Of a DNA stretch of 64,000 bases, positions 7,386 to 20,546 are shown one piece after another. Both the position numbers and the translations under genes were made by a program. Positions within the stretch are counted from its first letter, which is position 1. Each line of letters starts with the position of its first letter. Source of the DNA: Neptunicoccus cionae (GTDB lineage Bacteria; Pseudomonadota; Alphaproteobacteria; Rhodobacterales; Rhodobacteraceae); contig NZ_BMKA01000001.1 in assembly GCF_014643735.1 (NCBI RefSeq), positions 744,001-808,000 on the forward strand. Direction: 5' to 3'. The notes beneath the pieces were generated by a model. The model made no database searches. It saw only the letters and a list, made by a program, of their open reading frames with translations, and was not told the origin of the DNA.

Positions 7386-10300
7386 ATGGGTGCCGGAGCA
7401 GAGCTATTCGCCTTTGACGAAAATTTGGAAGAAACCCGGAAAAACGTGATCGAGGCCCGCTCTGAGGTGCGTGAAATCCGGAAGGATGTAAAACTCGCGC
7501 GGCAAGCGTTGGAATACGCGACTAAAATCGAAAAACAGGCGGATGATTTCGGCAAGCAAGTGGATGCCATGCTTTTGTCCGTCAAGATCATGGGTAATGC
7601 GGGGCCGCTGAAGTCGGTTGCCAAAGTCGCCAAAATTGTTTTGGAAAAAGTGAAATCGGTTTCAGACAAGCTGGAAGATAAAGCCCGTGATCTGCGGATC
7701 AAGATCGAAGACGGCGAGTATATCGAAAAACTCAAGAACGCGGAAAAGAAGCTCTCAGCACTTGAGACAAAGATGCTTAACGTGGCGATCAAAGTCTATG
7801 AGGTAGAGGCCTCCACAGCTGAGATGATCGACACCTTTGAAACAGTAGACGAGGTGGACGGGCCGGAATATGACACGCTCAAGCCGCTGTCGGACACTGC
7901 GGAGGTGTTTGTCGAACCGCTCAACGACGTGCTTGAGACGCTGAACGGAACTTATAACAGCTTGAAGGACGAATTGGACAATTTTACCACAGCGTTCAAG
8001 GTGGGGGGACTGAACGCATTGGTGGCTGTGGCAGGGAAGTTCCAGCAGGTTGCCGACAGCCTTTCGTTCCTAAAAAAACCGTTAGAGATCGTGTATTCCA
8101 AGTTGAAACCGATCGAACCTATCCTTGATGCAATAGGCTTTATTTTCAAGATCACGGTAGAGCCAGTGCTCAACTGGATTATGGACAAGACGGGCATTAA
8201 CACATTGCTGGAAAAACTGGCTGACAAGATCTCCTCGGCATTGCCGGACGCGGATGCCTTGAACGGGTTAGAAGCCAAGATTGACGCTGTTTTTGAAAAG
8301 TTCGGAGAGCTTGGTAATCTGGTCACGCTGGACGGTTGGGATCTGGATCTGGACGGTTTTCTGGATGATTTTATCTCTCGCGTATTTGACGAATTTGGCA
8401 ATGATCCGTCCGACCGCCTGATCCTTGGGACCGAAGGCGCGGATGATTTGCATGGCACGGACTCCGCGGATGTAATCAATGCGCGCGCTGGGAATGACAC
8501 GGTGACAGCGGGTGCCGGGAACGATCTGATATTCGCTACACAGGGCAACGATACAATTTATGGAGGCGCCGGAGACAAGGACAGCCTGCGCTTTTCCGGT
8601 GGGCTGTCTGAATATTCCTTTTTCAGCACCGAGGATGGTGCAGGCATCGTCTTTTTCCATCAAAACCCTGCGAACGCGTATCTGACGCATGGTTACGAAA
8701 CCGTTTATGGTGTGGAAGATTTTTATTTCGGGCTCGACCATTTCACCTTCACCGAGCTGATTGAGAACGTAAAAGTCGCAGAAAACGCGTTGTTGGAAGG
8801 TACTCCGGAGAACGATTTCCTGTACGGCGGCCGTTTTTCGACAACGATTTACGGATTTGAAAAGGACGACCGTATCACCGGTTCCGCCTTTGTTGATACG
8901 CTTTATGGTGGCCTTGGCGATGACGTTTTTGTTGCGAGCGGCGGGGCGGATCAGGTCTTTGGCGGCGCAGGCAATGATACATGGCTATTTGCTGTTGATC
9001 CAGATGGCAGTTCCACTGTTGTTGCCGATCTGGCCGAAGGCACCGCCTGGGACGGGCGCGCCCATGACACGTTAACTGGGATCGAAAACATCATTATGCG
9101 GGATTCTCGTACTGTCCGTCTGCGCGGCGACGAACTCGACAACCGTTTGGTTGGCAATGACGGTGATGACTACATTGATGGAAGAGAAGGGGATGACCGT
9201 ATTTTCGGCGGCGACGGTAAGGACGTGCTGGTCGGCGGTCTTGGCCAGGACAGCCTTTTCGGAGGGGAGCATTTTGACCAATTGGTGGGCGGTGGCACAC
9301 CGGTTGACGGACAGGGCGATTTCTTTGATGGCGGAGAAGGCAACGACTGGCTGACCTACACTCCAACGGCGATCCGGTATGGATCATTCGAGCGCGTGGA
9401 CCCCCAGCCTGATACCGGTAGCTTGCGGATATACGGGGGAGAAGGACGGGTGGAGCATCTGGACACAGATGGCAGCCTTCTGGCATTCGATACATTTGTA
9501 AGCATTTCCAAAGTGACCGGGGGCGCGCAGGCTGATACACTTTACGGAGCATCGAGCCCTGACAATATGAGCGTTCAAATCGACGGGGGCGGGGGCGACG
9601 ATGTTCTTTTCTCCAACGGTGCGCCGCTGGTTGCTGGCGGTGACGGGGATGATCTGATCCAGCTGACCATGCCTGATACCATCTATAACGGCACCAACTT
9701 TGATGGGGGCAGGGGATATGACACCCTGGACACCCGCATGTTGGACGAGGTGCGGTTTTACCTGCGCAAGGTCGGTTCTATCGGCTCTAGTTTCCGTGGT
9801 TTTGATGCCTCGGAAAGCAGTGAGTTGGGGGTAGAGGACGATCTGGCGGAAACCTATGCTTCCCAGTTGTTTAGTGGCACATTCAACGGGATTGAACGTC
9901 TGTACCTCGGCGATTTCGCGGATGAAGTGCAGCTGCTGGGCAACGAACGGATGACGATCTATGGCGGGGGTGGGAACGACATTTTAATCCGTGATCCTTC
10001 GACGGATGGATCAACCTTCGGCGTGCTTTATGGCGGCGCTGGCGACGATTACATGCGCCTTCGGGATTACGGCTACTTGTTTGGCGGCGGGGGTAAAGAC
10101 ACGATGGTGATTGCCTCCGGTGGCAGCGGCAATGACATGACGGTCGATGGCGGTGCGGATGATGACCTTATTCAGATCCAGCGCTTTCGGGGCGATATTC
10201 TGGGCGGCGACGGTTACGATCGCATGCACTTTGATCTGAGCAGCCATTCCACCGCGCCGCGTATCGTGAACGTCGATCTAGAAGCTGGAACGGTTCTCGC

Positions 10301-12077
10301 TGAAGGCGGAAGCAATGAGATCACGGCCACGGTTTCGGGCGTTGAGGAACTGATTGGGAATGATTTCGCCGACCGTTCCGACCGGTTTTATGGCACCTCC
10401 GGATCTGAACGGTTTGTCGGGCTTGACGGGAGCGACCTGCTCGACGGGCGTGGGGGTAACGACCAGCTTTTCGGCGGGTTAGGGATTGACCGGCTTTATG
10501 GCGGGGACGGGGATGACCTGCTGCACGGGGGCGGCGGGAATGATACGCTTTACGGCGGGGGCGGACGGGATACGGCGTCCTATGATACGGCCGTGCCGGA
10601 CACGACGTCGGGGGATGTGAAAGCAGCCAATTTCGGTGCAATTACCGCCAATTTGGTGGATGGCACTGTGTCCGGGGCCCACGGCACCGACAGGCTTTTC
10701 GAGATCGAAAACCTGATTGGCACCAACCTTGGGGATACGATCACCGGTTCAGAGGAAAGCAACGGCTTCACTGGCGGCAATGGCGATGATTTGCTCTATG
10801 GTGCCGGGGGCGATGATATACTGAACGTCGGGCTGGGCAATGACACTGCCTATGGTGGCGCGGGCGACGATGTCTTCACGCTTGATGGTGGGAATAACAG
10901 CTTTTACGGTGGCGCAGGGGAAGACACGCTTGAATTGGGTTCGAATTCCGGCAGCATCCGGCTGACATTTGCTAGCGAAACATACGAGGCGATCCTGCGC
11001 GCCGACGTTCCGGTCTGGCAGGATACTGGCAGTAGCGAGCCGCGGATTTATAACGGAGTATCCCTGACACCGCAGGACATTCTGGAAACCGGCCATCCCT
11101 TTGCGAATGAAGCCGGTGATCTGACACGGGTGTTGCCCGCGCTCGACGAAGCAGAATCCGGCGCCTTCCAGATCAGGTTGGACAATATGCTCGTCCCTGC
11201 GGTGGACGGCGTGTTCCAAAGTATCGAGGCTGTCACAGGTGGCACTGGCAGAATCATCCTGGACCTGTGGCGGGCGGAGAGTGTTCAGACCTATGACGGG
11301 AGCGCAGGGCGCAAAGATACTCTCGATTTTGGCGCGTTCGAGACGGGACTATCCTATGATATGCGCAGCGGCGAGTCCGATAGCGCCTATCTGGCGGGGG
11401 ATAAGCTGTCCGGCATCGACATAGTGAAGGGCAGCGGTTTTGCGGATCAATTCACCGGCGATCTCAGGGGGAATGAAATTTACGGGCGCGGTGGTGCGGA
11501 TGTGCTTTTGGGGCTGAACGGTAAGGACGCGCTGTTTGGCAATGGCGGTGATGACAATCTGAGCGCTGGAAAAGGCAACGATCTGCTGCGCGGTGGCGGT
11601 GGTCGAGATGAACTGTCGGGCGGGAAAGGCGCGGATGTTCTGCGCGGAGAGAAGGGCCGCGATATGCTATTGGGCAACGGTGGCGCTGATCTTCTTGTCG
11701 GTGGCACCGGGGGGGACAAACTGCAAGGTGGGCTTGGGAAAGATGTTCTGATCGGCGGACTGGGGCGCGATGTGATGAGCGGTGGCAAGGGTGCGGATAT
11801 ATTCGCGTTCAAAGATATCGCGGACACCACGACATCTGCTGTGGATAAAATCACCGACTTCGGGCGCGGTCAGGATAGGATTGACCTCTCCGGGCTCGAT
11901 GGCAGTTTTAACTTCCTTGGTAAGTCGGATTTTACCGGAAGGGCGCAAGAGGTGAATTTCTCAAGAAGCGACGGAGATTTGATTGTGAAGATCGACGCGG
12001 ACGGGGACGGGGCGGCGGATATGAAGCTTGTCCTTGCCGGTTTTTCTGGATTGAACGGCGGGGACTTCATCCTTTAG
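7386..12077 (+). CDS. very large RTX calcium-binding protein, 1563 aa
   Basis: Predicted type I-secreted protein. Residues 1-170 are highly charged and form long helices likely to be coiled coil; 170-340 continue as helical, lysine/leucine-rich sequence. From about 345 onward there are several separated blocks of RTX nonapeptides (near 350-395, 475-535, 590-640, 1025-1065, 1130-1190 and 1375-1475), with non-repeat spacer domains between them. The last 90 residues (ADIFAFKDIADTTTSAVDKI to the terminal LNGGDFIL) resemble the serralysin-type C-terminal domain that carries the secretion signal. No catalytic motif is visible; it may be an S-layer, adhesin or matrix component. Start ATG follows TAGGAGATGACCG. 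A terminator follows. No exporter genes are adjacent. Confidence 0.88.
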   Translation: MGAGAELFAFDENLEETRKNVIEARSEVREIRKDVKLARQALEYATKIEKQADDFGKQVDAMLLSVKIMGNAGPLKSVAKVAKIVLEKVKSVSDKLEDKARDLRIKIEDGEYIEKLKNAEKKLSALETKMLNVAIKVYEVEASTAEMIDTFETVDEVDGPEYDTLKPLSDTAEVFVEPLNDVLETLNGTYNSLKDELDNFTTAFKVGGLNALVAVAGKFQQVADSLSFLKKPLEIVYSKLKPIEPILDAIGFIFKITVEPVLNWIMDKTGINTLLEKLADKISSALPDADALNGLEAKIDAVFEKFGELGNLVTLDGWDLDLDGFLDDFISRVFDEFGNDPSDRLILGTEGADDLHGTDSADVINARAGNDTVTAGAGNDLIFATQGNDTIYGGAGDKDSLRFSGGLSEYSFFSTEDGAGIVFFHQNPANAYLTHGYETVYGVEDFYFGLDHFTFTELIENVKVAENALLEGTPENDFLYGGRFSTTIYGFEKDDRITGSAFVDTLYGGLGDDVFVASGGADQVFGGAGNDTWLFAVDPDGSSTVVADLAEGTAWDGRAHDTLTGIENIIMRDSRTVRLRGDELDNRLVGNDGDDYIDGREGDDRIFGGDGKDVLVGGLGQDSLFGGEHFDQLVGGGTPVDGQGDFFDGGEGNDWLTYTPTAIRYGSFERVDPQPDTGSLRIYGGEGRVEHLDTDGSLLAFDTFVSISKVTGGAQADTLYGASSPDNMSVQIDGGGGDDVLFSNGAPLVAGGDGDDLIQLTMPDTIYNGTNFDGGRGYDTLDTRMLDEVRFYLRKVGSIGSSFRGFDASESSELGVEDDLAETYASQLFSGTFNGIERLYLGDFADEVQLLGNERMTIYGGGGNDILIRDPSTDGSTFGVLYGGAGDDYMRLRDYGYLFGGGGKDTMVIASGGSGNDMTVDGGADDDLIQIQRFRGDILGGDGYDRMHFDLSSHSTAPRIVNVDLEAGTVLAEGGSNEITATVSGVEELIGNDFADRSDRFYGTSGSERFVGLDGSDLLDGRGGNDQLFGGLGIDRLYGGDGDDLLHGGGGNDTLYGGGGRDTASYDTAVPDTTSGDVKAANFGAITANLVDGTVSGAHGTDRLFEIENLIGTNLGDTITGSEESNGFTGGNGDDLLYGAGGDDILNVGLGNDTAYGGAGDDVFTLDGGNNSFYGGAGEDTLELGSNSGSIRLTFASETYEAILRADVPVWQDTGSSEPRIYNGVSLTPQDILETGHPFANEAGDLTRVLPALDEAESGAFQIRLDNMLVPAVDGVFQSIEAVTGGTGRIILDLWRAESVQTYDGSAGRKDTLDFGAFETGLSYDMRSGESDSAYLAGDKLSGIDIVKGSGFADQFTGDLRGNEIYGRGGADVLLGLNGKDALFGNGGDDNLSAGKGNDLLRGGGGRDELSGGKGADVLRGEKGRDMLLGNGGADLLVGGTGGDKLQGGLGKDVLIGGLGRDVMSGGKGADIFAFKDIADTTTSAVDKITDFGRGQDRIDLSGLDGSFNFLGKSDFTGRAQEVNFSRSDGDLIVKIDADGDGAADMKLVLAGFSGLNGGDFIL

Positions 12078-12349: not shown

Positions 12350-13081
12350 TTAACCGGTCTTGCAGCGCATGCGCGCCACTTCGCGGGCCAGCTCCAACGT
12401 GTGATCGGCCAGCTGCTCCAGCACTGCTTGGGTTGTCGCGTCGTCCTGCGCCTCTAACGCATCGGCGATCCGCGTGTGCAGCTCGACAATCTTCTCCCGT
12501 TTGCGTGCTGTAAAGGTGATCATATTCATCAACGGTTCAATCGCCTCGACTGCGCCAGCCAGTTGATAGGACATCACCGGATTGCCCGCTGCATCCACCA
12601 ACGCGCGGTGAAAGGCCACGTCCGAGGCGCAAAAGCCCTCGTCGCTCAGACCAGGCTGGGATTGACGGTGGATTTCGGCCCGCATCGCTGCCAGTTGATC
12701 CGGTGTGCGGCGCTGGGCGGCAAGGGCAACACAGGCCTGCTCCATCGCAAACCGTGCTTCGCAAGCGGTTTCAAAGCTCACAGCGTTCATTGAAAGCAGC
12801 AGCGTAGAGGTCGTGATTTGCTGTCCATAGGCGTCTTCAAAGCTTAGCCGGTTCACAAAGGCCCCGCCGGATGCACCGCGCTGTGTGCGGATCAAGTTTT
12901 GTGCCGCCAACCGCTTCAAGGCTTCACGGACGGTCGGGCGCGAGACTTGAAATTGTTCGCATAAATCGCTCTCTGAAGGCAGGCGCTGGTCTACGATCAA
13001 GCTGCCCTCCATAATGCCATCCCGAATGGCCTGCGCAATCTGTGCTGAAAGTTCCTGTGCCTGGTCCAGTTCGTACTTCAT
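12350..13081 (-). CDS. GntR/FadR-family regulator next to dmdA
   Basis: Transcription factor of 243 residues. N-terminal winged helix (about 10-75, with LPSESDLCEQFQVSRPTVRE and a GGAFV wing) and a C-terminal all-helical FCD ligand-binding domain with its metal-binding Asp/His pattern (DVAFHRALVDAAGNPV, LHTRIADAL). It is divergent from the DinB-dmdA-acuI operon. In Ruegeria pomeroyi, as I recall, a GntR-family gene also sits beside dmdA, so control of DMSP/acrylate genes is the natural inference. Two near-identical 16-bp repeats lie 36-75 bases upstream of its start and could serve both directions. The ligand is not known; acryloyl-CoA or acrylate is a guess. Confidence 0.9.
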   Translation of the reverse strand: MKYELDQAQELSAQIAQAIRDGIMEGSLIVDQRLPSESDLCEQFQVSRPTVREALKRLAAQNLIRTQRGASGGAFVNRLSFEDAYGQQITTSTLLLSMNAVSFETACEARFAMEQACVALAAQRRTPDQLAAMRAEIHRQSQPGLSDEGFCASDVAFHRALVDAAGNPVMSYQLAGAVEAIEPLMNMITFTARKREKIVELHTRIADALEAQDDATTQAVLEQLADHTLELAREVARMRCKTG

Positions 13082-13116
13082 CGCTTGCCTGTTTTCGCCT
13101 TTGTCCGATTGTCGGA

Positions 13117-13156
13117 ATTAATTGTCTGACATATGGAGAAATTAATTGTCAGACAT
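13117..13156. promoter_or_regulatory. paired GntR-type operator, dmd control region
   Basis: Two 16-bp copies differing at one base: ATTAATTGTCTGACAT (13117-13132) and ATTAATTGTCAGACAT (13141-13156), repeated every 24 bp. Each has a TGTC-N-GACA palindromic core, close to the GT-N3-AC pattern bound by FadR-subfamily regulators. A looser match (TTGTCCGATTGTCGGAA, 13101-13117) lies next to them on the regulator side. Binding by the adjacent GntR protein is inferred from position and symmetry. Confidence 0.7.
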
Positions 13157-13377
13157 TTAAAACTCCCGTAGACGCAATGTACCCGAAAGCCGCGGTTTCA
13201 CAAGGGTGGAGCAGCCAAATCCAGTCAGCAGGTGCGATGTGTTCGATCTTTTCCATCATCTGATCCGTCCGATCCATCGGCTGTTATTAAACGCGGCGAA
13301 GCCGCTCGGCGGTGTTCCGGTCCGTACTTACAATCCATGCAACCTATGACAGGTTTTTTCGTTCGGGGAGGGACGAT

Positions 13378-13884
13378 ATGGTAATGACAGTAGACTGGCT
13401 GCGCATGATGGCGCGCTATAATGAATGGCAGAATGGCTGGATGGTTCCGGCTGCTGCCACGCTGACAGATGCGCAGCGGCTGCAGGATCGGGGTGCGTTC
13501 TTCGGCTCGATCAGCGCTACGCTTTGTCATATTCTTTGGGCGGATACCCTTTGGATGTCCCGCTTTGACGGCGGGGCAGGTCCCACAGTGCCGGGCGCGC
13601 AAAGCACCGAATACCACAAGGATTGGGACAGCTTTTGCACGCAACGCAAACTGACGGACCAACGTATCGTGGATTGGGTCGCGGGCCTTTCGGACGGCGA
13701 TATGTCTGGCTCCATCACGTGGTTCTCCGGTTTAAAGCAATCGGATATCTCGCAAGCTAAATCCCTGATTTACACCCATCTGTTCAACCACCAGACCCAC
13801 CACCGCGGACAGGTGCACGCCATGCTGACCCAAGCTGGTGTGAAAACCGCTGATACAGATCTCGTCTTTATGGAGTCCGCCTAA
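13378..13884 (+). CDS. DinB-family putative metalloenzyme in dmdA operon
   Basis: A 168-residue DinB/YfiT-like four-helix protein. The usual metal-binding histidines are present: H51 in CHILWAD, and H138 and H142 in FNHQTHHRGQ. DinB relatives include thiol-dependent S-transferases and isomerases; the substrate here is unknown. I chose the ATG at 13378 because GGGGAGGG (13365-13372) is 5 bases upstream; the frame is open further upstream without such a site. Its stop codon overlaps the dmdA start (TAATG), so the two are translationally coupled. This ties it to DMSP metabolism, but no role of this family in that pathway is known to me. Confidence 0.88.
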   Translation: MVMTVDWLRMMARYNEWQNGWMVPAAATLTDAQRLQDRGAFFGSISATLCHILWADTLWMSRFDGGAGPTVPGAQSTEYHKDWDSFCTQRKLTDQRIVDWVAGLSDGDMSGSITWFSGLKQSDISQAKSLIYTHLFNHQTHHRGQVHAMLTQAGVKTADTDLVFMESA

Positions 13885-14987
13885 TGGCCCTATTGTCCCA
13901 ATCCCGCCGCCTGCGTCGCACACCGTTTTCCGAAGGTGTCGAGGCCGCCGGTGTCAAAGCCTATACCATCTATAACCACATGCTGTTGCCCACGGTGTTC
14001 CGCTCGGTCACAGAAGATTACCACCACCTTAAGTCCGCCGTGCAAATCTGGGATGTGGCCTGTGAACGGCAGGTGGAACTGCGTGGTCCGGATGCGGCGC
14101 GGTTGATGCAGATGTTGACGCCCCGCGACCTGCGCACCATGAAGGAAGGCCAGTGTTTCTATGTGCCGATCGTGGATGAAACCGGCGGTATGCTGAACGA
14201 TCCGGTGGCGGTAAAACTGGCCGAGGACCGCTGGTGGATTTCCATTGCCGACAGCGATCTTCTTTACTGGGTTAAGGGAATTGCGAACGGCTGGCGGCTG
14301 GATGTTCTGGTGGATGAACCGGATGTATCACCACTCGCCGTTCAGGGGCCGAAGGCGGACGAATTGATGGCGCGGGTCTTTGGGGACAGCGTTAAAGATG
14401 TGCGCTTCTTCCGCTATGGATTGTTCGAGTTTCAGGGCCGCAAGTTGGTAGTGGCGCGGTCCGGTTATTCCAAACAGGGGGGCTATGAAATCTATGTTGA
14501 AGGCAGCGACATCGGCATGCCGTTGTGGAACGCGCTGATGGAAGCGGGGCGCGATCTTGACGTGCACGCCGGATGCCCCAACCTCATTGAACGGATCGAA
14601 AGCGGGCTTCTGTCCTATGGCAATGACATGACGGATGACAACACACCCCATGAATGCGGGCTGGGACGGTTCTGCGATACCCATGACGCCATCGGTTGCA
14701 TCGGGCGGGACGCGCTGCTGCGAGTGGCTAAAGAAGGGCCAGTGCAGCAGATACGCCCCATGGCGATAGAAGGCGCTGCGGTTCCAGGTTGTGATCGCTG
14801 GTGGCCGCTGCTGGCCGGAGAGAAAAGGGTCGGTCGGGTGTCCTCGGCTGCTTGGTCGCCGGATTTTGAGACGAACGTGGCCATTGCAATGGTGCGAATG
14901 ACCCATTGGGACGCGGGCACTGCGCTGCGCGTCCAGACACCGGACGGGATGCGCGATGCAACCGTTCTGGAAGGTTTCTGGAATTAA
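13884..14987 (+). CDS. dmdA: DMSP demethylase DmdA
   Basis: Tetrahydrofolate-dependent enzyme that takes a methyl group from dimethylsulfoniopropionate, giving methylmercaptopropionate and 5-methyl-THF; cytoplasmic. It has 367 residues, the usual DmdA length, in the GcvT/aminomethyltransferase fold. DmdA-like segments run the whole length: RRLRRTPFSEGVEAAGVKAY near the start, IWDVACERQVEL, GGMLNDPVAVKLA, PDVSPLAVQGP, VVARSGYSKQGGYEIYVEGS, HAGCPNLIERIESGLLSYGN and PHECGLGRFC. These distinguish it from GcvT. It begins at the ATG that overlaps the DinB stop codon and is followed 13 bases later by acuI, as in Roseobacter relatives. The adjacent GntR regulator and operator pair probably control it. 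Confidence 0.94.
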   Translation: MALLSQSRRLRRTPFSEGVEAAGVKAYTIYNHMLLPTVFRSVTEDYHHLKSAVQIWDVACERQVELRGPDAARLMQMLTPRDLRTMKEGQCFYVPIVDETGGMLNDPVAVKLAEDRWWISIADSDLLYWVKGIANGWRLDVLVDEPDVSPLAVQGPKADELMARVFGDSVKDVRFFRYGLFEFQGRKLVVARSGYSKQGGYEIYVEGSDIGMPLWNALMEAGRDLDVHAGCPNLIERIESGLLSYGNDMTDDNTPHECGLGRFCDTHDAIGCIGRDALLRVAKEGPVQQIRPMAIEGAAVPGCDRWWPLLAGEKRVGRVSSAAWSPDFETNVAIAMVRMTHWDAGTALRVQTPDGMRDATVLEGFWN

Positions 14988-15000
14988 AGAGGAGAATGAT

Positions 15001-15990
15001 ATGTTCAATGCACTGATCGTGGAAAAAGACGACGAGGGTAAAACCTCTGCCTCGGTACAACAAATCGGCGAAGACCGTCTGCCTGATGGCGAAGTCACCG
15101 TTGCGGTGGAATATTCCACTGTGAATTACAAGGATGGTTTGTGTCTTGGGCCGGGCGGGGGGCTGGTACGGAATTACCCGCATATTCCGGGCATCGACTT
15201 TGCCGGTACTGTCGAATCCTCGGATGATCCCCGCTACAAGGCTGGCGACAAGGTGGTTTTGACCGGTTGGCGCGTCGGTGAAGCTCATTGGGGCGGATAT
15301 TCCCAGAAGGCCCGCGTCAAGGCGGATTGGCTGGTGCCATTGCCTGACGGGTTGGATGCAAAACAGGCTATGGCCGTCGGGACTGCGGGTTTCACTGCTA
15401 TGCTGTCTGTTATGGCGCTGGAAGACCACGGTCTGACGCCGGGCAATGGTCCGGTTCTGGTAACGGGTGCTGCCGGTGGCGTGGGTTCTGTTGCGACAGC
15501 AATCCTTGCCAACCTCGGCTATGAGGTCGCGGCGGTTACGGGGCGTCCTGAAACCGAGGATTACCTTAAATCCCTTGGTGCGACCCAGATCGTCCCGCGT
15601 GCGGAATTGAACGAAACCACCAAACGCCCGCTTGAAGGCGAAACATGGTCCGGTTGTGTAGATGCGGTGGGCGGCGAAATGCTGGCGCGCGTACTGGGCC
15701 AGATGAAATACGGTGCGTCTGTTGCGGCGGTCGGTCTGGCGGGGGGCGCGAAACTGCCAGCCACGGTGATTCCGTTCCTGCTGCGCGGTGTGAACCTGCT
15801 TGGCATCGACAGCGTGATGCAGCCCTATGACAACCGCCTGCGCGCATGGGAGCGGGTGGCCAAAGACCTGCCGATGGACAAACTCGAAGCGATGATCCAG
15901 CCGGCAACTCTGTCCGATCTGCCCCAACTGGGCGAGGATATCCTCAAAGGTCAAGTTAAAGGCCGTGTTCTGGTTGACGTGAACGGCTGA
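15001..15990 (+). CDS. acuI: acryloyl-CoA reductase AcuI
   Basis: Zinc-independent MDR-family NADPH oxidoreductase of 329 residues that reduces toxic acryloyl-CoA to propionyl-CoA. N-terminal GroES-like domain (VNYKDGLCLGPGGG, PHIPGIDFAGTV) and a Rossmann NADPH site (VTGAAGGVGSVATAIL). The N-terminus MFNALIVEKDDEG is typical of the AcuI/YhdH subfamily. Start ATG follows AGAGGAGAATGAT. It is the last gene of the dmdA operon and is followed by a perfect terminator. Its product, propionyl-CoA, is the substrate of PccAB encoded 14 kb downstream. AcuI protects cells from acrylate in both DMSP cleavage and demethylation bacteria. Confidence 0.94.
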   Translation: MFNALIVEKDDEGKTSASVQQIGEDRLPDGEVTVAVEYSTVNYKDGLCLGPGGGLVRNYPHIPGIDFAGTVESSDDPRYKAGDKVVLTGWRVGEAHWGGYSQKARVKADWLVPLPDGLDAKQAMAVGTAGFTAMLSVMALEDHGLTPGNGPVLVTGAAGGVGSVATAILANLGYEVAAVTGRPETEDYLKSLGATQIVPRAELNETTKRPLEGETWSGCVDAVGGEMLARVLGQMKYGASVAAVGLAGGAKLPATVIPFLLRGVNLLGIDSVMQPYDNRLRAWERVAKDLPMDKLEAMIQPATLSDLPQLGEDILKGQVKGRVLVDVNG

Positions 15991-16020
15991 TCCGGAACAA
16001 CAGTTCCATGATCGCAAAGC

Positions 16021-16056
16021 AATGGCCCCGTCGCATCTGACGGGGCCATTGGCGTT
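16021..16056. terminator. bidirectional terminator after acuI
   Basis: Perfect 12-bp inverted repeat AATGGCCCCGTC (16021-16032) and GACGGGGCCATT (16039-16050) with a 6-base loop, then GGCGTTTT. It lies between the converging acuI and VOC genes and may serve both. Confidence 0.85.
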
Positions 16057-16434: not shown

Positions 16435-16578
16435 GGCAATTTCTCCTGTGTTTAATTGCTGGGTTAAGCATAGACCCATGCTCCTGACAGCAAGCGGCAA
16501 CAACTTCGACGCGGTTCCAGCTTGACCCGCTGCACGGTCTACGGCACTGCTAAGGCTAAGGAATTTGGGAGCAAAAAT

Positions 16579-17802
16579 ATGACCTTGGACAATGATTTTA
16601 TCCGCAGCCAGTTTCCGGCTTTTTCACAAGCCGCACTGGACGGGCAGGCTTTTTTTGAGAACGCGGGCGGGTCTTATACTTGCGGTCAGGTGATCGACCG
16701 GCTGACCCGATTTTATACTGAACGCAAAGTCCAGCCTTACGGCCCATACGAGGCTTCTGAACTGGCCGGAGCCGAGATGGACGAGGCTCGAAAACGTCTT
16801 GCCGGTATACTCGGGGTGGCCACGCATGAGCTGTCTTTTGGTCCGTCCACCACGCAGAATACCTATGTGTTGGCGCAGGCCTTTGGTCAATGGCTGAAGG
16901 AAGGGGATGCGATCATCGTCACCAATCAGGACCACGAGGCCAACACTGGTCCTTGGCGCCGTCTGGCCGATCGCGGAATTGAGGTGCGCGAATGGTGCGT
17001 TGACAGCGAAACCGGATCTTTGTCGTTGGACGATCTGGGCGCGCTTCTTGATGATAAGGTCAAACTGCTGTGCTTTCCTCATTGTTCAAACGTGGTTGGG
17101 GAAATCAATCCGGTGCGCGAAATCTGCGCAATCGCACGGGATGCTGGGATTTACACCTGCGTGGACGGGGTCAGCTATGCGCCCCACGGCCTGCCTAATG
17201 TCGGGGCGCTCGGGCCGGATGTCTATCTGTTCTCCAGCTACAAAACCTACGGTCCCCATCAAGGGATTATGGTGATGCGCGAAGGTCTGGGAATGGAGCT
17301 GCCCAATCAGGCCCACTATTTCAACGCAGATGTGCTGTACAAACGGTTCACGCCATCAGGACCGGACCACGCCCAAGTGGCGGCCTGTGCAGGGATCGCG
17401 GATTACATTGATGCGGTCTACGCCCATCACGGCGGTGTTGATGCCCGCGCTGCGACACGGGGCGAAGCCGTGCATGATCTGATGCGCAATTACGAAAGCG
17501 AGTTGTTGCAACCGCTTCTGGATTATTTGGGCGACAAGAACTCTGTACGTCTGATTGGCCCGCGCAACGCCTCGGCCAAGGCGCCGACGGTGGCGATGCG
17601 TTCACACAAAAGCGGGCTGCAACTTGCTGAAGAACTCGCCCCGATGGGTATCAACGCAGGCGGCGGCGATTTCTACGGCGTGCGCTGTTTGAAGGGGCTT
17701 GGAATTGATCCCGAACACGGCGTTTTGCGGGTCAGTTTCGTCCATTACACCTCAAAAGCCGAAGTCGATAAATTGATTGACGCTTTGGACCGCGTTTTGT
17801 GA
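16579..17802 (+). CDS. class V aminotransferase, cysteine desulfurase-like
   Basis: PLP-dependent enzyme of fold type I, 407 residues. It has the FENAGGSYT N-terminal motif, a PLP-binding histidine/aspartate region (NQDHEAN, CVDGVSYAPH) and the Schiff-base lysine in SSYKTYGPHQG. It belongs to the cysteine desulfurase-like/isopenicillin epimerase-like branch of class V. No catalytic cysteine loop of the SufS/IscS kind is obvious in the C-terminal half (VRCLKG is the only nearby cysteine), so desulfurase activity is uncertain. Start ATG at 16579 follows GGGAGC with a 6-base spacer, better than the upstream in-frame codon at 16522. Followed 34 bases later by the photolyase gene in the same direction. 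Confidence 0.85.
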   Translation: MTLDNDFIRSQFPAFSQAALDGQAFFENAGGSYTCGQVIDRLTRFYTERKVQPYGPYEASELAGAEMDEARKRLAGILGVATHELSFGPSTTQNTYVLAQAFGQWLKEGDAIIVTNQDHEANTGPWRRLADRGIEVREWCVDSETGSLSLDDLGALLDDKVKLLCFPHCSNVVGEINPVREICAIARDAGIYTCVDGVSYAPHGLPNVGALGPDVYLFSSYKTYGPHQGIMVMREGLGMELPNQAHYFNADVLYKRFTPSGPDHAQVAACAGIADYIDAVYAHHGGVDARAATRGEAVHDLMRNYESELLQPLLDYLGDKNSVRLIGPRNASAKAPTVAMRSHKSGLQLAEELAPMGINAGGGDFYGVRCLKGLGIDPEHGVLRVSFVHYTSKAEVDKLIDALDRVL

Positions 17803-17836
17803 TCCATTTAGCAGGAATAAGCGTATTGTTTCTGCT

Positions 17837-19261
17837 ATGAAAAAACCTGCTCCTACTCTGTGGTGGGTCAGACGCGATTTCCGTCTGGCCGACAACCCTG
17901 CGCTGGCCCATGCGATTGCATCGGGCGGGCCGGTCGTGCCTGTGTTCATCCATGACGATAGCGTCGCCAATCTGGGGGCCGCGCCGAAATGGCGGCTCGG
18001 GCTTGGGTTGGAAGCGCTCGCCGCCTCGCTGGAGGATGCGGGCAGCCGTCTGATCCTGCGCAAAGGGGATGCGCTGGACGTGCTGCGAGACCTTATTGCC
18101 CAAACCGGTGCAAAGTCCGTCACATGGTCCCACGCCTATGTTCCTGATGCGATCGAGCGGGATACCAAGGTTAAGGCAGCTTTAACAGATGACGGGATCG
18201 CCGCAGAAAGCTGCGCGGGGCATTTGCTGTTTGAACCGTGGCAGGTCGAGACAAAAGCTGGCGGATTTTACAAGGTCTACACCCCATTCTGGCGCGCCGC
18301 GCGGGATATTCCAGTGGCGGCCTGTCTGCCAGCTCCAACAGAAATAGCTGCCCCGCAGGACTGGCCCCACAGCGATAACCTTGCAGATTGGAAGCTGGGG
18401 GAAGCAATGAGCCGCGGCGCTGATGTAGTTCGCGCTTACGCCTGCGTCGGCGAAGCCGCAGCCGAGCAGCGCTTGGCCGATTTCCTTGATGGTCCGATTG
18501 AGGATTACCGCGAAGGGCGGGATTTCCCGTCGCGAAACGTGACTTCCGGCCTGTCAGAAAACCTTACCTACGGGGAAATTGCCCCGCGCCGGTTGTGGCA
18601 TGCAGGACGGCAGGCGCTGGAACAGGGTGCAGCAGGGGCAGAACACTTTTTGAAAGAGGTTGTCTGGCGCGAGTTTGCCTATCACCTTGCCTACCACACC
18701 CCCCGTATGCTGACCCGAAGCTGGCGTGAGGAATGGGAGGATTTCAACTGGCGCGGCGACAATGACGACGCCGAAAAATGGCGGCGCGGCATGACCGGTG
18801 AACCGATGGTCGATGCCGCCATGCGCGAACTTTATACCACCGGCACCATGCACAACCGCTCACGGATGATTGCGGGGTCTTATCTGACGAAACACCTGCT
18901 GACGGATTGGCGTGTGGGGCAAGCGTGGTTTGAACAAACCCTGATCGACTGGGATCCGGCCTCTAACGCGATGGGCTGGCAATGGGTGGCGGGCAGCGGG
19001 CCGGATGCGTCACCGTTTTTCCGCGTCTTCAATCCCGAAACCCAAGCCGAAAAATTCGACGGGTCGCAGAACTACCGTGATCTCCACCTGAAAGGCGGGG
19101 AGGACGAGGAGGGGCGCAACCCTGCAGAGGATTTCTACCGTGCAATCCCGAAGTCGTGGAATATCACCGACAAAACCCCGCGACCGGATCGCATAATCTC
19201 TTTGAAAGAGGGCCGCGAGCGTGCGTTAGCCGCCTATAAAGGCGCAAAAGAACAAGGATAA
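17837..19261 (+). CDS. phrB: deoxyribodipyrimidine photolyase
   Basis: Light-driven repair of UV-induced cyclobutane pyrimidine dimers. It has 474 residues: an N-terminal antenna-binding Rossmann domain (LWWVRRDFRLADNPAL, start to about 130) and a C-terminal FAD domain (about 200-470). Diagnostic stretches are the WREFAYHLAYH helix, the TGTMHNRSRMIAGSYLTKHL segment and the WDPASNAMGWQWVAGSGPDA flavin-binding block, all typical of class I CPD photolyase. Cryptochrome-like variants cannot be fully excluded. Start at the ATG at 17837, giving the standard N-terminus. Downstream is a pair of AAACCTTGGTT repeats and then the cyclopropane synthase gene. Confidence 0.94.
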   Translation: MKKPAPTLWWVRRDFRLADNPALAHAIASGGPVVPVFIHDDSVANLGAAPKWRLGLGLEALAASLEDAGSRLILRKGDALDVLRDLIAQTGAKSVTWSHAYVPDAIERDTKVKAALTDDGIAAESCAGHLLFEPWQVETKAGGFYKVYTPFWRAARDIPVAACLPAPTEIAAPQDWPHSDNLADWKLGEAMSRGADVVRAYACVGEAAAEQRLADFLDGPIEDYREGRDFPSRNVTSGLSENLTYGEIAPRRLWHAGRQALEQGAAGAEHFLKEVVWREFAYHLAYHTPRMLTRSWREEWEDFNWRGDNDDAEKWRRGMTGEPMVDAAMRELYTTGTMHNRSRMIAGSYLTKHLLTDWRVGQAWFEQTLIDWDPASNAMGWQWVAGSGPDASPFFRVFNPETQAEKFDGSQNYRDLHLKGGEDEEGRNPAEDFYRAIPKSWNITDKTPRPDRIISLKEGRERALAAYKGAKEQG

Positions 19262-19304
19262 AACCTTGGTTAACAAGAGGCTTGGCAGACAAAAAACCTT
19301 GGTT
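19261..19304. repeat. AAACCTTGGTT direct repeat pair
   Basis: The 11-mer AAACCTTGGTT occurs at 19261-19271 and 19294-19304, 33 bp apart, each with a small AAACC/GGTT symmetry. The pair occupies the gap between the photolyase stop and the cyclopropane synthase start, where a promoter or operator would sit. Confidence 0.5.
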
Positions 19305-19334
19305 TAGGCTTTGTCTCAGAACAGGGAGAGTTGG

Positions 19335-20546
19335 ATGCAGGGATTTACATCCACAGACGGTCAAAAGGATCTGCCGCGCTATTTTAGTGCGGCGTTTTCC
19401 CAGTTGAAGAAAATTCGCAACGGCAGTCTGGACATGGTTCTGCCGGACGGGCGCCTGTTCCAGATCAAAGCGCCCAACCCCGGACCTTATGCGCGCGTGG
19501 AAATTCACAACGACGACGTGTTTACCCGACTGGCGCGTGAAGGGGATATGGGGTTTAGCGATGCCTACCTAGAGGGCTGGTGGTCGTCCCCCGATTTGCA
19601 GGCGTTTCTGGATCTGGTTTTTGCCAATAACGAAGAGGTCGGCCACGGTTTTCCTGGTGGATTTGTGGTGCAATACTATGAACGGTTGCGCCACTGGTTG
19701 CGGGGGAATTCCAAAACACAGGCCCGCAAGAATATCTCTTATCACTACGATCTGGGGAATGATTTCTATTCCAAATGGCTCGATGAAACCATGACCTATT
19801 CCTCGGCTCTGTTTCTGACCGGCCAAGAGGATATGGCCAAAGCGCAGATCCAGAAATATGCGTCACTTTGTGATGAAATGGGCATGAAGGAAGGCGATCA
19901 CCTGCTGGAAATCGGCTGTGGTTGGGGCGGTTTCGCTGAATATGCCGCGGGAACCCGTGGCGCGCGGATGACCTGTCTGACCATCTCGCAGGAGCAGCAC
20001 GACTTTGCCAAGAAACGCATGTTTGAGGCGGGTCTGGCGGATCGTGTGGATGTGGTGATGCGCGATTACCGCGATGAAACCGGCAGCTATGACGGTATCG
20101 CCTCTATCGAGATGTTCGAGGCCGTGGGCGAGAAATACTGGCCAACCTATTTTAACGCGGTGCACGATCGCCTGAAACCGGGTGCGAATGCCAGCCTGCA
20201 GATCATTACAATCGCCAACGAACTGTTTCCAAAGTATCGAAAGACCGTTGATTTCATACAGAAACACGTCTTTCCGGGCGGGATGCTGCCAAGCCCAAAC
20301 GCCCTGCGGACCGAGGTGGAGCGGGCAGGTCTGTCCTATCTGAAGTCAGTCGAATTCGGTGAGAGCTATTCCATTACCCTGCGCCGCTGGTATGAAACCT
20401 TTAACGCCGCTTGGCCCGACATCACGCAAATGGGGTTTGATCAACGGTTTAAGAATATGTGGGATTTCTATCTGACAAGTTGTGCATCCGGCTTTCACTA
20501 TGGCACAACAGACGTGACGCAAGTGACCATTCAACGGCCAAAATAA
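19335..20546 (+). CDS. cfa: cyclopropane-fatty-acyl-phospholipid synthase
   Basis: SAM-dependent enzyme that adds a methylene bridge to unsaturated acyl chains of membrane phospholipids (or a related methyl transfer). The protein has 403 residues: an N-terminal lipid-binding region (VEIHNDDVFTRLAREGDMGFSDAYLEGWW) and a C-terminal methyltransferase domain with NISYHYDLGNDFY, MTYSSALF, and the SAM motif LLEIGCGWGGFAEYAA at about 190-205. The end is RRWYETFNAAWPDI, then a conserved FDQRFKNMWDFYL block. Start ATG at 19335 has GGGAGAG just upstream; a TTG at 19311 is in frame but lacks one. In photosynthetic relatives cfa-like genes lie near photolyase genes and respond to singlet oxygen; here the adjacency is visible, regulation is inferred. 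Confidence 0.92.
   Translation: MQGFTSTDGQKDLPRYFSAAFSQLKKIRNGSLDMVLPDGRLFQIKAPNPGPYARVEIHNDDVFTRLAREGDMGFSDAYLEGWWSSPDLQAFLDLVFANNEEVGHGFPGGFVVQYYERLRHWLRGNSKTQARKNISYHYDLGNDFYSKWLDETMTYSSALFLTGQEDMAKAQIQKYASLCDEMGMKEGDHLLEIGCGWGGFAEYAAGTRGARMTCLTISQEQHDFAKKRMFEAGLADRVDVVMRDYRDETGSYDGIASIEMFEAVGEKYWPTYFNAVHDRLKPGANASLQIITIANELFPKYRKTVDFIQKHVFPGGMLPSPNALRTEVERAGLSYLKSVEFGESYSITLRRWYETFNAAWPDITQMGFDQRFKNMWDFYLTSCASGFHYGTTDVTQVTIQRPK

Follow-up and report, generated by a model that had tools for sequence, protein, structure and literature searches.

The 64,000-nucleotide stretch of the Neptunicoccus cionae genome analysed here (contig NZ_BMKA01000001.1, positions 744,001 to 808,000; hereafter the window) carries dmdA and acuI, the genes for a dimethylsulfoniopropionate (DMSP) demethylase and an acrylyl-coenzyme A (CoA) reductase, behind a divergent gene for a GntR regulator of the FCD type. 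The comparative data suggest, with a probability that we would put at about 0.65, that this regulator is a local acrylate-type repressor of the acuI operon, and that dmdA is a recruited member of the acuI regulon. The matter bears on an old question, the balance between DMSP demethylation, which keeps sulfur in the food web, and DMSP cleavage, which releases dimethyl sulfide to the air. If the reading is true, demethylation of DMSP is switched on by something that its cleavage produces, and one matrix of operator sites can predict the regulon of each genome; with a candidate for the regulator, this matrix, and a set of predicted targets, the question of control becomes directly testable.

acuI as the constant partner of the regulator

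The best 80 of at least 589 DmdA relatives, found among 595 stretches, were kept as loci (L numbers), and 70 of these possess an ortholog of the window regulator upstream of dmdA, on the opposite strand. The acuI gene is present in 69 of the 70, the exception (L008) being a locus that ends after dmdA. As to the remaining ten loci, two are cut off upstream (L055, L074), and eight truly lack the regulator (L027, L031, L054, L060, L066, L070, L071, L077); none of these eight intact loci has acuI within the flank read, and in four of them (L027, L066, L071, L077) dmdA follows a gene that by eye resembles an acyl-CoA ligase. In a family sample of 295 genomes (G numbers), with orthologs called at E<=2e-70 for GntR and E<=2e-140 for DmdA, the stricter cut-offs having been set after the lists were seen, the regulator is encoded in 114 genomes (121 at 1e-40) and DmdA in 115 (149 at 1e-80). 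Both are present in 88 genomes, with the pair divergent within 8 kb in 86 of them (Fisher p 1.9e-27 for co-occurrence, kinship ignored).

At the strict cut-off, a close DmdA is missing from 26 of the 114 genomes encoding the regulator. Neighborhoods were read for 20 of these (all except G014, G169, G189, G203, G254, and G255), and all 20 possess the operator site described below, while 17 possess acuI and none possess dmdA. The site scores 13.5 bits in one of them (L279) and at least 16.9 bits in the remaining 19, none of the 20 loci having been part of matrix training. In one locus (L269), acuI is not shown in the 1.2 kb up to the contig end. The arrangements include acuI alone, [PpoB2-DUF1326-(dinB)]-acuI, and acyl-CoA dehydrogenase-(dinB)-acuI. 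The constant partner of the regulator is acuI, not dmdA, and, with acuI beside it and dmdA missing in 17 of 20 loci, it looks like a regulator of acrylate/acryloyl-CoA removal through AcuI rather than a sensor of DMSP demethylation. A previous reading of the window from sequence alone had proposed a dedicated switch for DMSP products; the paired operator and the link to the regulator hold, and the dedication probably does not, with acuI the constant partner and dmdA missing beside those 17 GntR-acuI loci.

One alternative, which we consider unlikely, is nevertheless such a dedicated sensor of DMSP demethylation, responding to DMSP or methylmercaptopropionate, with acuI carried along and the dmdA-less units being what remains after dmdA loss. 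The close DmdA in 88 of the 114 genomes, linked in 86, is in line with it, and the extra operators found upstream of a ligase gene and an SBP56 gene (see below) would fit a demethylation route. Arguing against it are the 26 genomes without a close DmdA, with their retained sites and acuI genes, the lack of acuI in all eight dmdA loci without the regulator, and the induction of dmdA-acuI of Ruegeria pomeroyi by acrylate (PMC3338564; this and the other papers given by PMC number are cited from excerpts). Another alternative, of a rather low probability in our view, is a regulator responding to a general propionate-type metabolite (from propionyl-CoA, methylmalonate, beta-alanine, or 3-hydroxypropionate catabolism), the connection to DMSP being incidental. 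The proposal that AcuI-type enzymes also remove endogenously formed acryloyl-CoA (PMC3338564) is consistent with this, as is the occurrence of one acyl-CoA dehydrogenase family both in GntR-acuI units (L261, L268, L275) and, in L193, downstream of paired sites; the strong association of the regulator with DmdA in the family genomes is not.

A different kind of dmdA cluster is seen in L027 and L066 (1737-7104), where dmdC-, dmdD-, and acyl-CoA ligase-like genes are followed by dmdA, with no GntR gene, operator, or acuI. Roseovarius mucosus has clusters of both kinds (L035, with the regulator, and L066).

The operator and its specificity

The features of the window locus are as follows.

12350-13081, minus strand: gntR, FCD-type GntR regulator, 243 amino acids (Pfam GntR and FCD), divergent from the operon
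13119-13135: operator half-site 1, TAATTGTCTGACATATG, with the core TGTCTGACA at 13123-13131; matrix score 25.2 bits
13143-13159: operator half-site 2, TAATTGTCAGACATTTA, with the core TGTCAGACA at 13147-13155; matrix score 28.6 bits, the best in the window
13239-13299, plus strand: what is left of a PpoB2 (DUF2182) gene, namely part of its 5' end, after deletion; today either leader or a 36-codon stub ending at 13349
13378-13884, plus strand: dinB, DinB-family protein (Pfam DinB, 79 bits), with the start codon ATG at 13378 or 13384
13884-14987, plus strand: dmdA, DMSP demethylase (NF009133, 697.8 bits)
15001-15990, plus strand: acuI, acrylyl-CoA reductase (NF051456, 441.3 bits; TIGR02823, 464.8 bits)
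16020-16051: 13-bp hairpin between convergent genes, a possible bidirectional terminator (RNA fold z -5.26)

The two half-sites are 24 bp apart, centre to centre. With a 17-bp matrix built from the sites of 60 of 71 gntR intergenic regions, window included, they are the two top-scoring positions of the 64 kb, the third best scoring 7.9 bits, both of them belonging to the training set. Three or more occurrences of the core TGTCNGACA arise in 4 of 100 shuffles of the window, which alone is not rare, and thus conservation in relatives is taken as the real evidence for the operator. This core is present in 60 of the 71 gntR intergenic regions, window included, and every one of the 71 holds a site of at least 16 bits, the 11 that contributed nothing to training among them. 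Elsewhere in the 994 kb spanned by the 80 loci, no position reaches 14 bits, and none of 547 control regions (250 bp upstream of other long open reading frames in the same loci) contains a site of at least 16 bits. The eight dmdA loci without the regulator contain no A/T-centred core. The paired operator that the sequence-only reading had tied to the regulator is thus borne out, the half-sites being conserved along with gntR.

It seems highly improbable that some other regulator uses the paired sites and that the adjoining gntR is unrelated. Binding by GntR is a prediction, which leaves some room for this reading; against it, the site is found in 71 of 71 gntR intergenic regions and is retained where the operon is otherwise altered, and the A/T-centred core is missing from the eight dmdA loci without the regulator. 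Two further observations concern similar elements. Near another GntR-like gene and a pyridoxal-phosphate-enzyme-like gene (both named by eye), L093 and L096 carry C/G-centred TGTC[CG]GACA sites, which may be a sister operator used by a different regulator. Between gntR and the operator pair, at 13104-13116, the terminator scan listed one more palindrome, TCCGATTGTCGGA, which is imperfect.

The regulator and its putative ligand

The assignment of the divergent gene to the GntR family, also made by the sequence-only reading, is supported by Pfam scores of 66.2 bits for the GntR domain (gathering threshold 27) and 70.7 bits for the FCD domain (threshold 24.3), and no TetR domain, as would be expected of an AcuR-like protein, is found. 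Among the 25 NCBIfam models listed of 30, none of the named GntR families (NanR, PdhR, LldR, GlcC, etc.) reaches its cut-off, the best being NanR, at 106.4 versus 260 bits. The predicted structure (mean predicted local distance difference test score, pLDDT, 78.7; predicted template-modelling score 0.63; residues 63-78 below a pLDDT of 50) matches those of FadR, NanR, and VanR in Foldseek (E 4e-6 to 9e-4), the template-modelling (TM) scores being low, at 0.35-0.56.

Asp154, His158, and His202, which we take to be metal/carboxylate ligands of the FCD domain (as part of a pattern of Asp and three His), are invariant in 40 aligned rows. At the expected fourth position of this pattern the window protein has His and the consensus has Tyr. 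FCD domains usually bind small carboxylates, and for this reason acrylate may be favored over a CoA ester as the ligand. The guess of the sequence-only reading, acryloyl-CoA or acrylate, fits a regulator of acuI.

Further predicted targets in relatives

Exact-pattern scans recovered 39 sites in 10 genomes encoding the regulator and DmdA, and 93 sites in 40 genomes, versus 16 and 15, respectively, for the reversed control. From among the matches listed, 84 stretches were fetched (those of the 10-genome scan including C/G-centred sites): 31 are gntR intergenic regions, 5 are at an SBP56 gene, and 48 are other. Only two families recur among these 48, in the matches listed. One is a PRK08162-type acyl-CoA ligase, in six genomes, with a sulfotransferase-like neighbor in three of them; the other is an acyl-CoA dehydrogenase-like gene with the site inside the gene (L190, L203; 15.8 bits in both), which we rejected as a target and take as shared coding sequence, the proteins being 87% alike.

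In 10 of 50 genomes a site of at least 14 bits lies no more than about 110 bp upstream of the ligase ortholog, and in an eleventh the site scores 13.5 bits. Of 31 SBP56 matches, 30 were fetched; without three weak ones, 27 full genes remain, of which 9 are preceded by an exact core at a distance of 76-144 bp (matrix scores 15.9-27.1), and no exact core occurs in the 109 kb of remaining sequence of these stretches. SBP56 also adjoins acuI in pMaD9 of Marinovum algicola and follows it in L018. One Roseovarius genome, that of L049, carries the operator at all three places, acuI-dmdA, the ligase, and SBP56. A third example is the acyl-CoA dehydrogenase gene of L193, with two sites (28.6 and 26.2 bits), whose product is 80-82% identical to the ones encoded within the GntR-acuI units at L261, L268, and L275.

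More specific names for these targets were considered and set aside. The score with the SBP56 family model PF05694 is 586.8 bits, and the one protein tested (L086) gives 112.4 bits versus a cut-off of 650 for the methanethiol oxidase MtoX (NF052453). The ligase of L189 (cut by the locus end) and the complete one from the Marinovum dmdA operon score 268.8 and 298.6 bits versus the DmdB cut-off of 822 (NF005426), and both pass the PRK08162 acyl-CoA synthetase cut-off of 677. As the MtoX and DmdB cut-offs are not reached, the targets are named SBP56-like and acyl-CoA ligase only. The acyl-CoA dehydrogenases of L193, L261, L268, and L275 are not close to DmdC either, with 23-27% identity to the DmdC-like proteins (by eye) of L027 and L066.

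Gene assignments and a deletion in the window

The gene calls of the sequence-only reading, namely dmdA and acuI, co-oriented, with a DinB-family gene ahead of them, are ordinary and correct, the dmdA-acuI operon being already known. The dmdA product scores 697.8 bits versus the cut-off of 410 for the NCBIfam DMSP demethylase equivalog; the three GcvT models, the alternative that reading had named for 13884-14987, score 118-159 bits, each below its own cut-off. The best PDB match (377 bits) is 3tfh, deposited as 'GcvT-like aminomethyltransferase', which we take to be the Pelagibacter DmdA, while the best chain named plain aminomethyltransferase scores 116 bits. By these scores the product is DmdA, GcvT is excluded, and a tetrahydrofolate-dependent activity is predicted. 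AcuI is narrowly above the cut-off of its equivalog (440 for NF051456) and well above that of TIGR02823 (297), with the best solved relatives being chains 5gxe/5gxf, named AcuI (620 bits). In the DinB protein, the His residues of CHILW and NHQTHHRGQ are invariant across 20 aligned sequences. The dinB and dmdA genes overlap by one base (TAATG), and dmdA and acuI are 13 bases apart. As to the terminator previously noted after acuI, the hairpin is there, but it has no T-run and is not listed by the terminator scan.

The operon had also been described as compact, which it is, but this state results from a recent deletion in this lineage. Genes for PpoB2 (PF09948; DUF2182 in one deposited annotation) and DUF1326 are present between gntR and dmdA in 60 of the 70 GntR-linked loci; both are missing from nine, and L075 retains DUF1326 only. 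The nearest DmdA proteins, 98% identical, are those of Amylibacter cionae, Neptunicoccus sediminis, and one metagenome-assembled Rhodobacteraceae genome (L001-L003), and in a joint tree of DmdA and GntR (71 rows) the window falls together with L001 and L003, L002 being outside (99/82). All three carry the pair and the window locus does not. Window positions 13061-13299 align to L001 3810-4049 (76%), a stretch that takes in the operators and 61 bases at the start of the PpoB2 gene, which begins at 3989 in L001; the alignment resumes at L001 5484 with window positions 13366-13420 (84%), just before dinB. A tblastn search of the 64 kb gave no convincing copy elsewhere in the window (best E 0.86 for PpoB2, and 0.004 over 52 residues for DUF1326). 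The alignment thus marks the compactness as derived, the pair having been deleted and a stub left. At 13239-13349, the deletion leaves an open stub of 36 codons in the dinB leader.

At least seven state changes of the pair are forced by well-supported branches of the tree, so the pair is repeatedly dispensable. A role in delivering copper to methanethiol oxidase, considered because PpoB2 is a 'copper chaperone' in Pfam, is not supported: among the 50 genomes searched of the 70 with the regulator, 23 of the 41 retaining the module have a full SBP56 gene, versus 2 of the 9 from which it was lost (Fisher p 0.14), with L075 (DUF1326 alone, weak SBP56 match only) counted among the 41 and two more weak SBP56 matches among the nine. 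Next to PpoB2, the DUF1326 protein (L001 4777-5448) has invariant cysteines (NC.C..FCPC, then C57); its model (pLDDT 78) gives eleven weak acetoacetate-decarboxylase-like matches at E<=0.001 (TM 0.35-0.45, root-mean-square deviation 11-14).

In the wider neighborhood, gntR is flanked by a gene for a 1563-amino-acid protein with many GGxGxD repeats (7386-12077; RTX-like, named by eye), with a similar one at L001 20-3001. Downstream (16522-20546) are by-eye look-alikes of aminotransferase-V/cysteine desulfurase, photolyase, and cyclopropane-fatty-acid synthase genes, and look-alikes of at least one of these recur past acuI in loci with the regulator and no dmdA (e.g. L261, L262, L265, L266, L273, L276).

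Proposed mechanism and its standing

In the model that we favor, a GntR dimer, or a pair of dimers, would sit on the two TGTCWGACA palindromes of the divergent promoter region, holding both gntR and the operon low. Accumulating acrylate, or a close product such as acryloyl-CoA or 3-hydroxypropionate, would bind the FCD domain, causing GntR to leave the DNA, and dinB, dmdA, and acuI would be made together. AcuI would then remove acryloyl-CoA, and DmdA would divert DMSP from the cleavage that forms acrylate. The regulon of some other Rhodobacteraceae may also include the acyl-CoA ligase, the acyl-CoA dehydrogenase, and the SBP56 (methanethiol-oxidase-like) gene. More broadly, and here we lean only somewhat toward the proposal, GntR would be the missing switch of DMSP use in Rhodobacteraceae: ancestrally a regulator of acuI of the acrylate type, it would have captured dmdA and, in certain lineages, also the ligase, dehydrogenase, and SBP56 oxidase genes.

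A number of points weigh against the favored model. Some genomes with the regulator and no close DmdA (e.g. G107, G129, G145) carry a more distant DmdA-like gene elsewhere, and acuI is not seen in the 6.5 kb read at L267 and L273. Of the 71 intergenic regions on which the matrix is scored, 60 also served to train it, and no sigma-70-type promoter was found in the gntR-dinB intergenic region. Most genomes do not have the extra sites, and several of those that do are close kin, so that independent gains must be fewer than the counts. In the three nearest relatives of the window the ligase gene has no site and SBP56 is not found, and thus only the acuI-dmdA operon is predicted as a target in this lineage. 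The sequence itself shows the gene identities and their linkage, the operator with its specificity, the additional sites, and the loss of PpoB2-DUF1326. From it we infer DNA binding by GntR, repression, the ligand, the direction of the capture, and the applicability of R. pomeroyi data to this species; the sequence would fit a repressor or an activator, and dmdA joining or leaving acuI, alike. The R. pomeroyi operon is presumably under the same GntR, judging by analogy with the Tritonibacter, Leisingera, and Phaeobacter loci.

Comparison with known systems

The closest known system is dmdA-acuI of R. pomeroyi (SPO1913-SPO1914; Todd et al., 2012), for which lacZ fusions show an induction of about 10-fold by DMSP and of about 14-fold by acrylate (PMC3338564). 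As in the window and in most Roseobacters, dmdA is directly upstream of acuI; in the window, unlike in R. pomeroyi, dinB precedes dmdA (PMC3338564). Induction of a demethylase gene by acrylate, a product of cleavage, looks odd, and the capture of dmdA by an acuI regulator would explain it simply. A divergent GntR gene, its operator, and its regulon are not described for this operon in the excerpts of PMC3338564, and the open-licence literature searched, also seen in part, describes no GntR regulator of dmdA or acuI, papers elsewhere or a RegPrecise entry being possible. Within that literature, the regulator, the operator, the acuI-centred distribution, and the wider regulon are new here. The mtoX operon of R. 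pomeroyi carries its own IclR gene (PMC5739008).

Another example is pMaD9 of Marinovum algicola DG 898 (CP010864), which, like the window, has a divergent regulator and dmdA-acuI; its cluster also holds PpoB2 and DUF1326, lost from the window and annotated by the depositors as 'involved in DMSP breakdown', as well as an acyl-CoA synthetase/ligase and SBP56. With the FCD-type regulators NanR, VanR (Atu1419), and DhdR, the window GntR has the fold class in common (21-26% identity in Foldseek matches, at TM-scores of no more than 0.36-0.54), while their targets and ligands are different. In Halomonas sp. D47, control of acuI is likewise linked to DMSP and acrylate, but through AcuR, a TetR protein reported as an activator, and AcuZ, of the LysR family (PMC13104084). 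In acuR-acuI-dddL of Rhodobacter sphaeroides, acrylate is the co-inducer, acting via the TetR repressor AcuR, and, as in the window, the regulator gene is beside acuI and the operator is palindromic; the differences are in the regulator family, in the operator (TAATAGAC-n6-GTCTATTA), and in the presence of the lyase gene dddL in place of dmdA (PMC3017554). We propose that, in this part of the Rhodobacteraceae, GntR takes the place of AcuR without being homologous to it.

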